Shown here piece after piece: positions 11,043 through 58,387 of a DNA stretch of 64,000 bases; the stretch's first letter is position 1; every line of letters begins with the position of its first letter. Source of the DNA: Nocardiopsis ansamitocini (GTDB taxonomy: Bacteria > Actinomycetota > Actinomycetes > Streptosporangiales > Streptosporangiaceae); NCBI RefSeq assembly GCF_030268225.1, contig NZ_BSQG01000006.1, forward strand, positions 1 through 64,000, read 5' to 3'. A model generated the notes under the pieces. It searched no databases and was not told the origin of the DNA. It saw only the letters and a list, made by a program, of their open reading frames with translations. A program made the translations under genes and the position numbers.

Positions 11043-11083
11043 CAGGGTGCACAAAATTTTCGTTCCCGAGCTGGTGCACCCTG
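11043..11083. promoter_or_regulatory. inverted repeat upstream of mutA
   Basis: CAGGGTGCAC at 11043-11052 and its exact reverse complement GTGCACCCTG at 11074-11083 flank an A+T-rich core (AAAATTTT). The right half is preceded by CTG, giving CTGGTGCACC, also found in a dyad near bldC. The position, 41-81 bases upstream of mutA, fits an operator over the promoter. It could instead form a 10-bp hairpin with a 21-base loop. Confidence 0.55.
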
Positions 11084-24019: not shown

Positions 24020-24382
24020 ATGCGCAAGTCCAACCGAGCCGCGGCCGGCGCGGCAGCCTGGAAGGTCGTCAGTGAGGCCAACCAGCCGGGTAAGCCCCCC
24101 GTCGCCGACCGGATCAAGGCGCTGCCCCGGATGCTCGGGGCCAAGGCCAGGGGGCGTTACGACCAGCTCCCGGCATCCCGCGTACTGCTGTTCCTGGCCG
24201 GAATCGCCTACATCGCCTCTCCGGTCGACCTCATCCCGGAGCTGTTCATCCCGTTCCTCGGGCTGGCCGACGACATCGGTGTCGCGGTCTGGCTGACCAG
24301 TGCCCTGCTCGGCGAATCCGAACGTTTTCTCGCCTGGGAGCAGGTGGGTACCGACTACGTCGAGGGCCGGGTCGTCTCCTAG
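24020..24382 (+). CDS. DUF1232 (YkvA-like) membrane protein
   Basis: Protein of 120 residues with the DUF1232 core (LFLAGIAYIASPVDLIPELFIPFLG), which forms a membrane hairpin with the conserved SPVDLIPE motif. ATG 24020 has AGGTGA five bases upstream; GTG 24011 is the alternative. The function of this family is not known. A strong bidirectional terminator follows and separates it from bldC. Confidence 0.85.
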   Translation: MRKSNRAAAGAAAWKVVSEANQPGKPPVADRIKALPRMLGAKARGRYDQLPASRVLLFLAGIAYIASPVDLIPELFIPFLGLADDIGVAVWLTSALLGESERFLAWEQVGTDYVEGRVVS

Positions 24383-24395
24383 CCCCGGACATGCC

Positions 24396-24429
24396 GAGGG
24401 CGGGTCGCTTTCCTCGGCGACCCGCCCTC
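24396..24429. terminator. bidirectional terminator between DUF1232 gene and bldC
   Basis: Perfect 13-bp stem (GAGGGCGGGTCGC / GCGACCCGCCCTC) with loop TTTCCTCG. It is 13 bases after the DUF1232 stop and 61 bases after the bldC end, between convergent genes. Confidence 0.85.
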
Positions 24430-24490
24430 GTGCGTCGGGCAGTCATTCTCCCCCAGCGATCCTTCCGGACTCCGGAAGTTGGAGGGCGGG

Positions 24491-24694
24491 CTACTCGCTG
24501 CGCTGGCTCGGAATCCCGGCCAGGAGTGCACGGACTTCGGTCTCGCGGTAGCGGCGGTGGCCGCCCAGAGTCCGAATCGAGGTCAGCTTGCCGGCCTTCG
24601 CCCAGCGCGTGACGGTCTTGGGGTCCACGCGGAACATGGTGGCCACCTCGGCAGGGGTCAACAGGGGCTCCGCCTCGGGCGTGCGAGTTGACAT
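24491..24694 (-). CDS. bldC: developmental regulator BldC (small MerR-like HTH)
   Basis: DNA-binding protein of 67 residues, a stand-alone winged helix of the MerR type (LLTPAEVATMFRVDPKTVTRWAKAGKL, with wing GGHRRYRE). It matches BldC of Streptomyces, which binds cooperatively to direct repeats and delays entry into sporulation. The gene ends near a bidirectional terminator, and more than 700 bases of non-coding DNA lie upstream, suggesting complex control. The identification rests on length, sequence and the neighbourhood (DUF3073, purM, purF), which I recall from Streptomyces. Confidence 0.95.
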   Translation of the reverse strand: MSTRTPEAEPLLTPAEVATMFRVDPKTVTRWAKAGKLTSIRTLGGHRRYRETEVRALLAGIPSQRSE

Positions 24695-25403
24695 TTGTAC
24701 GGCCTCTCCTCCTGGATCTGTGTGCCGATCCTTGAGACTTCAATCCTGGCACTTGGCCCGGATGTCCAATATTGCCCTTAGGTCTACATATTGGCATCAC
24801 CCGAGGTGATTGCGCGACCACTTAACGCGACTTTGTTGGATGGGAGCTCCAAAGTCGCACATGCGTTGCGTCACGCTGAGTGATTCTAGCGACACGTTTA
24901 GTGGCATGTGGCGTATTCGGTCAAAACTTCGTCCTCCGGCCCTGTCGTTCTCGATTCAACGACCTTGGGGTGCTAGGGCGGCGTTGGTCGATGCTCTGGA
25001 TGCCCCGTCGGCTGGGCGGGGCTGCCGGGCCACCCATCAGCAGTTTTGCCTGCTGGGCATGAATGCCTGGTGCGTGTGTCGGCGCCTGTCAGGTGCCATG
25101 TGAACCCCCTTTGCGGCACGGGTGTTCAGTTACACAGAGTGCGCTCTGTAACGGTCTCAACACAGTCTATGTCGATATCTATCGGATGGTATGCCCATTT
25201 TCAGCAAAGTTGATGCCAACTGTGTAGCTCGTCATGACCTGTCCCACCTCTACCTGTTCGAAAATCGGTGGAACACCCTGAGAAACCTGGTGCACCAGGT
25301 TGACCCCGAGGGGTGGGAAAGACAGGGAACCGGGCCCGCGCCCGACCGCTCGCAGCCCCCCGCCAGAGCGCCGGATGGGGGCTCAGGGGCCTGCTGCCTG
25401 CGT
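24695..25403 (-). promoter_or_regulatory. long non-coding leader upstream of bldC
   Basis: About 700 bases without a convincing gene and clearly A+T-richer than the flanks, especially 24710-24960 and 25130-25260. It holds several dyads: GTTAC/GTAAC flanks around CAGAG-TGCG-CTCTG at 25129-25152, CGATA-TC-TATCG at 25173-25184, and a perfect 18-bp palindrome at 25284-25301. These look like binding sites for regulators of bldC, whose start is at 24694. A promoter for a small RNA cannot be excluded. Confidence 0.6.
25284..25301. promoter_or_regulatory. perfect 18-bp palindrome upstream of bldC
   Basis: AACCTGGTGCACCAGGTT reads the same on both strands with no spacer. It is about 590 bases upstream of bldC and 103 bases downstream of the neighbouring gene's end. 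The core CTGGTGCACC is shared with the inverted repeat in front of mutA. It looks like a protein-binding dyad rather than a terminator because no loop is available. Confidence 0.6.
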
Positions 25404-26327
25404 TCAGTTGGCGTTGCGCAGTGCCCGAACAGCGTTCCAGCGCTGTCGAAGCCGCCCGGCCATGGCCTTGGCCAACTCGGGGTGCCCCGTCTCCAGGCCG
25501 ATGAGCGCCGCGGACGCCTCCGCTACGGAGTGGTCGTCGCGCAGGGCGCTGTCGTCCATGAGATGCACCAGGCCGCCGTAGTCGAGCTCGAGGAGGGCCC
25601 GTGGGTGGGCCAGTTCGACCAACCACTCCTCCAGGCGCTCGACCGCGAACAGTAACGAGGAACCGGCCGCAGCAACCCCGCCCAGCAGGGATACCGCCCG
25701 GGTCAGCCGGGAGCGGGCGTCGGCCATCTCAGCGACGTACAGCAGGGTTCGGGGCTCGTGGCGTGGGGCGGGCTGCGGGGCAGTCTCCCCGAGGGCTCCG
25801 GTTCCGCCCGGGATGGGGAAGGACAGGTCGCGATCGGCACCGCGAGCAGGCCCCAGGACCAGGCAGCGCTCGTCGGCCTCGAACGGCAGCAGCCACGCGA
25901 GCGGGACCCGCCAGGTGCTGGTCAGGATCTGTGGGCTGGCGGGCTCGCCGCGCTCTCGCCAGCGGGCGAAGTCCGCGCGTACCTCTCCGGCCACCGTCTC
26001 TGTGATGAACGCCCCGCGCCGGCGCTCGTCGGTTTGGGTCTCGAACGACTCGAATGCCAGCCAGGAGCGCAGTCTGGTCTGCCATGGGCAGATGAACAGT
26101 TCGTCGCCGATCCTGCGCACATAGGCGTCGCCGCTCTCCTTCGCCGGTGCGACCACCGGAGGGGTGGCGCTCAGCCGGACCAGGCTCTGTGCGTGCTCGA
26201 CCGCCATGGCCTCCACCCGTCGCGGCCGCGCGGGCGAGTCCGCGTACGCGCGCCAGTACGCCCGGTCGCGGCTGGAGAACGCCACAATCGGCTGGTAGAG
26301 CCGGAGATAGGCCGTATAGGGGAGCAC
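25404..26327 (-). CDS. conserved actinobacterial protein of unknown function
   Basis: Protein of 307 residues starting at GTG 26327 with LPYTAYLRLYQP, a start I recall for homologues beside bldC in Streptomyces. It is rich in Trp and Arg and has no membrane segment or signal; WRAYADSP, FICPWQTRLRSWLAFE and the C-terminal helix AMAGRLRQRWNAVRALRNAN stand out. No catalytic motif was recognised. A much longer frame continues upstream but lacks a ribosome site and looks like G+C run-through. Conservation next to bldC hints at a developmental link, but that is inference. Confidence 0.75.
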   Translation of the reverse strand: MLPYTAYLRLYQPIVAFSSRDRAYWRAYADSPARPRRVEAMAVEHAQSLVRLSATPPVVAPAKESGDAYVRRIGDELFICPWQTRLRSWLAFESFETQTDERRRGAFITETVAGEVRADFARWRERGEPASPQILTSTWRVPLAWLLPFEADERCLVLGPARGADRDLSFPIPGGTGALGETAPQPAPRHEPRTLLYVAEMADARSRLTRAVSLLGGVAAAGSSLLFAVERLEEWLVELAHPRALLELDYGGLVHLMDDSALRDDHSVAEASAALIGLETGHPELAKAMAGRLRQRWNAVRALRNAN

Positions 26328-26824
26328 GCCTGAATCGTGGCACACGACAGGGGATTTTCGGGGGACCTCCGCCCCTGCCAGCAAGCCACTTGTGGTCACT
26401 TCGCTGGCATGCCGATGCCGTCCCTTAAATGCGGAGACGGTACCGTGTCTGTGGCACTCCACGGGGCGTGACCCGCGTGCCGGGGGAACAGCGGGCGGCG
26501 TGAGCCGTGCGCCGACTCCTCCGGTCGCACCGGTCGTCCCCCGATGTCTGCGAAGCGAGCCCGGAGGGCGACGAGCGCTGGCACGTGAGTGTGCAGGGGC
26601 GGTGCGGGGGACGCCGGAGAGTGTCGGCGTCGTTCCGGCTTTGTGCGGCACGCTCGGTTCCGAGCGGGCGGCGTAGGCAGGTTGGTCCTGAACCGGGTAC
26701 GGTTGTATCCGTACGTAAGCTGGCGCCTGTCCTCGTCAGTGCGGTGATGGTCGCCAGCCAGGCATTGTGGTTTTGCTAGTGATCTGGGGTTTGTGAGAAC
26801 CCAATCGTTGAGGGGGTCGAGCCA
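26328..26824 (+). other. intergenic region carrying divergent promoters
   Basis: The region separates the minus-strand conserved gene from the plus-strand DUF3073 gene. A dyad GTACGG-TTGTAT-CCGTAC lies at 26697-26714, and the A+T-richer stretch 26760-26800 probably belongs to the DUF3073 promoter and leader. The ribosome site GAGGGGG lies eight bases before ATG 26825. I see no gene in the G+C-rich part. Confidence 0.5.
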
Positions 26825-57838: not shown

Positions 57839-58387
57839 ATGAGCGCTGATCCCACGGAGTCCTTCTCCCGCCCCCGAGCAGCGGCCGGCGTGCTGTTCTT
57901 CGACGGGCAGGGGCACGTGATGCTGGTGGTCCCCTCCTACAAGAACCACCGTGACCTTCCCGGCGGCTACATCGAGCACGGGGAGACGCCGAGCCGCGCG
58001 GCCGCCAGGGAGGTCCAGGAGGAACTGGGAATCGAACCGCCCATCGGTCGGCTGCTCGCCATCGACTGGGCGCCCAGTCGCGTGGAGGGGGACAAGCAGC
58101 TGTTCATTTTCGACGGCGGGCGACTGGCACAGGATCATCTCGACGCCGTGGTCCTCGACCAGGTCGAGCTGACCGGTTACGGCTTCCACGACGTCGCCGT
58201 GCTCCACGAACGGACCACGCCCCGCCTGGCCCGCCGAATCACCCATGCCGTCCAGGCCCGGGCAGAAGGTGCGATCGCCTACCTGGAGAACGGCGAACCG
58301 CTCGGTCGGCCGTCGACGGGCGGGGTGGACGAGCCTCGCGAAACGACTCCGGATGCCCGCCCCGACAGGCAGACGTTCCTTTCTTGA
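57839..58387 (+). CDS. NUDIX hydrolase
   Basis: Protein of 182 residues with a full Nudix box at about 42-64 (GG..EHGE...AAREVQEELG) preceded by LPGGYIEHG and by a variable N-terminal strand. The C-terminal 40 residues are polar and unlike the fold. It hydrolyses a nucleoside-diphosphate-linked substrate of unknown kind. ATG 57839 has GGGCGG upstream. Confidence 0.88.
   Translation: MSADPTESFSRPRAAAGVLFFDGQGHVMLVVPSYKNHRDLPGGYIEHGETPSRAAAREVQEELGIEPPIGRLLAIDWAPSRVEGDKQLFIFDGGRLAQDHLDAVVLDQVELTGYGFHDVAVLHERTTPRLARRITHAVQARAEGAIAYLENGEPLGRPSTGGVDEPRETTPDARPDRQTFLS

Follow-up and report, generated by a model that had tools for sequence, protein, structure and literature searches.

A conserved inverted repeat upstream of bldC in the Nocardiopsis group as a candidate operator of a predicted distal control unit

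The window analyzed here, a stretch of 64,000 nucleotides of Nocardiopsis ansamitocini DNA (contig NZ_BSQG01000006.1), contains on the minus strand the coding sequence of the developmental regulator BldC (24491-24694), a protein of 67 amino acids with a MerR-like helix-turn-helix. An intergenic region of 709 bp separates bldC from the upstream gene on the same strand (25404-26342, approximate coordinates), the product of which has no Pfam match. Within this region, 102 nt past the stop codon of the upstream gene and approximately 0.6 kb ahead of the bldC start, lies AACCTGGTGCACCAGGTT, an exact, gapless 18-bp palindrome (25284-25301), so that in position, exactness and gaplessness the window sequence bears out the original prediction. 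Assigned to the minus strand, this dyad consists of the arms AACCTGG (25284-25290) and CCAGGTT (25295-25301) and the center TGCA (25291-25294), a division that follows from the sequence itself and from the relatives, in which the arms are kept and the center is free. On the bldC side, the dyad is followed by the 3' flank TCTC (25280-25283, minus strand), which is conserved and asymmetric, as the opposite side lacks a corresponding A-run; the first and third positions of this flank are nearly invariant among relatives, and the flank is lost or changed in genomes G082 and G006.

Further toward bldC, also on the minus strand, a linker of 86 nt (25198-25283), diverged in sequence but of nearly constant length (84-87 nt in 57 loci), leads to a distal block delineated by alignment (25130-25219), which comprises TTGGCATCA, TGGGCATA (25197-25190), TAGACT (25169-25164) and a near-match to the BldD box (25130-25142) and is a putative promoter. 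The stretch from TGGGCATA to TAGACT (25164-25197) also contains an inverted repeat, GTCGAT-N4-ATCGAC, that in relatives reads GCCGAT-N4-ATCGGC, with paired changes between genera. The proximal bldC promoter region (24883-24930, minus strand), likewise a putative promoter, combines GAAGTTTTGACC with TAGAAT (24888-24883) and is nearly invariant in the clade. A sigma-70 scan of the bldC upstream region, the distal block included, returned no canonical promoter match, and no second copy of the module formed by the dyad and the distal block was found in the genome. A small open reading frame spanning the dyad and the distal block was considered and rejected: stop codons are widespread in and near the block in every forward frame, and there is no convincing coding signal.

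Palindromy as such is not rare in the window, for which a first-order Markov model predicts 0.93 palindromes of at least 18 bp per 64 kb and in which two are present, but is rare in the bldC intergenic region, where the same type of model gives a chance of about 0.002 for the 709 bp of 59% G+C alone; the claim that the palindrome is rare by chance thus holds for the intergenic region and not for the window. The other exact 18-bp palindrome in the window is CGACTGGGCGCCCAGTCG (58063-58080). With up to 3 mismatches allowed, AACCTGGTGCACCAGGTT is the sole match in the window, and the pattern AACCTGG-N1-8-CCAGGTT has no second exact occurrence in the whole genome of 5.53 Mb.

To examine the relatives, bldC loci were taken from 60 genomes by protein and aligned, and further species of the main genera were added. 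Of the 9 closest bldC loci in the protein-fetched, aligned set, 7 have the dyad in the corresponding position. The conserved unit consists of the two arms around a free center of 3-4 nt, for which we observed TACA, TGTA, TACG, TATG, TCTA, AGTA, GCTT, CGG/CCG and, in this window, TGCA, with TCGA, TCAA and TTCG additionally present in genus g85. The half-sites are separated by N4 in most genera and by N3 in genus g31, in which the center at bldC has 3 nt in all species read and the center of a similar site elsewhere in one genome has 4 nt. The gapless 18-mer as the functional unit is ruled out, given that the center differs among relatives in both sequence and length; to judge from the alignments, gaplessness and the core shared with the repeat upstream of mutA appear to be peculiar to this genome. 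The arms themselves hardly change. Among 19 distinct sequences from approximately 12 genera, the 14 arm positions vary once (A-U to G-U), 6 of the 7 stem pairs never vary and none changes on both sides; across genus representatives, the arms are 98% identical, compared with a mean of 47% for the linker. Because the arms are nearly invariant without compensatory change next to a diverged linker, it is the sequence that is selected, not only the structure.

The exceptions come from loci that were fetched independently of the pattern. In genome G256, the arms are altered, with one uncompensated C-A mismatch, and the site and its 86-nt spacing are kept; in G106 and G007, both arms are decayed and the spacing is still 86-87 nt. 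In G106, pairing is partly retained via G-U pairs, and in G007, 6 of the 7 positions are still paired with a changed sequence, so that these two are the possible exceptions to the finding that the stem shows no covariation, that is, no drift of sequence under a retained structure. The dyad is lost in G018, and in G082 the arms are intact and the extra T is lost.

In 57 loci, many of which were fetched via the pattern itself, a bias that affects arm counts and not spacing, the dyad and the TGGGCATA...TAGACTGT block are 84-87 nt apart (mean 86, sd 0.5), whereas the distance from the upstream stop codon to the dyad, which is partly a matter of where the upstream frame terminates, ranges from 37 to 280 nt (sd 36) in the same comparison. 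The medians for 12 genera give the same contrast (sd 1.0 versus 32). The sets free of this bias are those fetched by the BldC protein, by the neighboring gene or otherwise independently of the pattern. Given the frame dependence of the stop distances and the persistence of the spacing where the arms have decayed, the evidence from these sequences for coupling of the dyad to the downstream block is strong but not conclusive, and constraints of another kind may hold the length of the dyad-block region constant.

Comparison of bldC leaders in related species had been proposed as a check, with lack of conservation counting against a role of the palindrome; in fact, the dyad is conserved approximately 0.6 kb ahead of bldC in nearly all genomes of the Nocardiopsis group, a result in keeping with a site that would act on bldC. 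It is present in all organism-named loci of Actinorugispora, Allosalinactinospora, Nocardiopsis, Streptomonospora and Marinactinospora that were retrieved with the upstream protein, and lies at -604 to -631 in the loci of the group whose record includes bldC. In about 60 loci of Actinomadura, Nonomuraea, Microbispora and similar genera, the dyad is missing, as are both the TGGGCATA block and the GAAGTTTTGACC block, and among the dyad-less relatives measured, most intergenic regions span about 260-350 bp. The dyad therefore belongs to some 400 bp of additional upstream sequence specific to the Nocardiopsis group.

Elsewhere in the genome, the regulon search yielded one further site with at most one mismatch, AACCTGGTACACCAGCTT (C5:125451-125468, locus L207), and no convincing regulon; this site precedes by about 90 nt a gene that we denote GDPD-like on the strength of an AHRGG motif, the family being named by inspection and not by a profile match. 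From the 37 sites with two mismatches, about 2 sites with one mismatch are estimated by chance. The counterpart of the GDPD site in relatives is CACCTGGAATTCCAG[GC]TTT. A regulator common to the two sites is possible but not supported, because the GDPD site conserves the center while its arms drift, the reverse of the bldC dyad. The original prediction also pointed to a core shared with the inverted repeat CAGGGTGCAC...GTGCACCCTG (approximately 11044-11082) that precedes the methylmalonyl-CoA mutase gene mutA. The core GGTGCAC is indeed present in both places, but the link is rejected because it falls in the center, the variable part among relatives, and the resemblance, at the level of these sequences, is very likely a coincidence. 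In another genus, AACCTGGATTCCAGGTT or AACCTGGAATCCAGGTT (with a 3-nt center) occurs in several loci (L038-L040), in one of which (L038) the dyad-like site is located beside a possible GntR-type gene, as judged by eye; third sites near HNH/DUF222-like genes occur in a few genomes only.

The known regulators of development provide the obvious comparison. In Streptomyces, bldC is a listed target of BldD, the binding box of which is TNAC(N)5GTNA (PMC4151990). The proximal bldC region of the window contains two perfect boxes, TCACGCTGAGTGA (24871-24883) and TCACCCGAGGTGA (24797-24809), the first of which is present in all 60 clade loci and the second, in its exact form, in 54 of the 60; matching boxes are found also in the checked relatives without the dyad. 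This suggests that BldD may control bldC in this organism as well, an already established relationship that carries over here and does not involve the palindrome. The palindrome itself, by contrast, does not match the BldD box, nor did inspection of its sequence reveal the AT-rich 9-bp direct repeats of the BldC site, with the consensus AATTNNNNC (PMC5859096).

The explanation that we favor, with belief and doubt about evenly balanced, is that the dyad is a sequence-specific DNA element, an operator or activator site, that serves a distal promoter of bldC and is recognized by a predicted dimeric regulator. Such a dimer would bind the two inverted half-sites of AACCTGG-N3/4-CCAGGTT; the site would belong to a distal control unit of the Nocardiopsis clade, separated by an almost constant 86 nt from the promoter-like block downstream; the block, approximately 0.5 kb ahead of bldC, would be a second promoter that drives bldC; and the bound protein would act on this promoter as activator or repressor, through contact or through a loop of about 8 helical turns. 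We infer the promoter function of the distal block, its driving of bldC, the presence of a protein on the dyad and the direction of regulation alike. An operator explains the invariance of the arms, the free center, the uniqueness of the site and the fixed spacing, and these features, namely, two invariant inverted half-sites, a free center and a distance apparently tied to a promoter-like block, are also those of generic operators of dimeric factors; the bldC dyad differs in that its center has either 3 or 4 nt and that promoter and binding are, in this case, predicted. The variable center counts against an operator, since the 3-nt center of g31 next to the usual 4 nt is disfavored by a rigid dimer and tolerated by a hairpin, and so do the conservation of the TCT flank on one side only, the near-absence of further sites in the genome and the persistence of the 86-87 nt spacing with decayed arms in G106 and G007. 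The original proposal of a candidate operator acting on bldC accordingly fares well with respect to the conserved place and poorly in its details, the gapless 18-mer, the center shared with mutA and the denial of a hairpin.

The main competing explanation places the function in RNA: on the bldC-sense strand, a 7-bp stem, AACCUGG/CCAGGUU, with a free loop of 3-4 nt followed by UCUC, would form an intrinsic terminator or insulator that keeps transcription of the upstream gene from running on into the control region of bldC. Although the palindrome had been considered unusable as a hairpin, its RNA is predicted to fold, at -9 kcal/mol, into a stem of 7 bp closed by a TGCA loop, and most variants reach -8 to -10 kcal/mol. 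The GC-containing stem, the short loop that is free in both sequence and length (3-nt loops and a TTCG loop included), the T-containing flank on the downstream side only and the position after a same-strand gene are all shared with Rho-independent terminators, and the residual pairing in G106 and G007 fits as well. Unlike in ordinary terminators, however, the stem sequence hardly changes across genera and shows no compensatory change; the U-tract is weak (the sequence following the stem is GGUUUCUC here, with the T-run longer or absent in other genomes), and a canonical terminator scan requiring at least 5 T in 8 misses the dyad; and the G007 variant folds poorly, at -1.9 kcal/mol. Moreover, another terminator-like hairpin, with 8 pairs and a T-rich tail, is located nearer the upstream stop in the window (25328-25347, minus strand), in a scan, though, in which such matches were no more numerous than in shuffled sequences. 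The mismatch in G256 and the missing extra T in G082 argue against a strict need for hairpin and U-tract. Near-invariant arms without compensation, together with a distance of 84-87 nt to the block against 37-280 nt to the gene, lead us to prefer the operator and to regard termination as unlikely, if still deserving of serious attention.

Less probable still, in our assessment, is that the dyad is no dedicated operator but has a structural role, as a site at which a nucleoid-associated protein or some other broadly acting factor would shape the control region of bldC; conservation of the length of the linker and distal block as a whole, and a spacing that outlasts the decay of the arms, would suit such a site, but the high specificity of the arms and their near-uniqueness in the genome speak against it. 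A dyad of 14 invariant nt is rarely required by nucleoid proteins. A chance palindrome without function, for all that nearly one of this length is expected for the composition of the window, is already refuted by its recurrence at the same place across genera despite diverged flanks and deserves hardly any credence.

Returning to the operator, the functional unit would be redefined as AACCTGG-N3/4-CCAGGTT plus the distal block at a fixed distance. In full, and as a rather doubtful proposition, the Nocardiopsis group would possess a distal bldC unit of about 400 bp with a second promoter and a dedicated dimeric regulator of AACCTGG-N3/4-CCAGGTT at a fixed 86 bp. A literature search for the motif returned only unrelated papers, and we found no description for Streptomyces of a branch of the sporulation network with such a distal bldC unit. 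One parallel, by description and not by binding sequence, is BldO, which is reported to be in Streptomyces a dedicated repressor of a single developmental gene, whiB (PMC5485038); the bldC dyad would similarly be a near-single-target site on the gene of a developmental regulator, with a different target gene and in a different clade. In Streptomyces, BldC holds back the onset of development (PMC6428758); if the clade-specific control site is real and bound by a protein, the BldC switch in the Nocardiopsis group would have an additional input wired in. Being clade-wide and located on a developmental regulator gene, the dyad is of moderate interest, and it is a short, unique and tractable site.

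A search of positions 24200-25900 with Rfam covariance models detected nothing over the dyad and one sub-threshold match elsewhere. The predicted 5' leader of bldC (24694-24883) contains a perfect 9-bp inverted repeat, GCGACTTTG/CAAAGTCGC (24827-24858), that is largely kept in relatives and might represent a structured leader RNA with no counterpart in Rfam.
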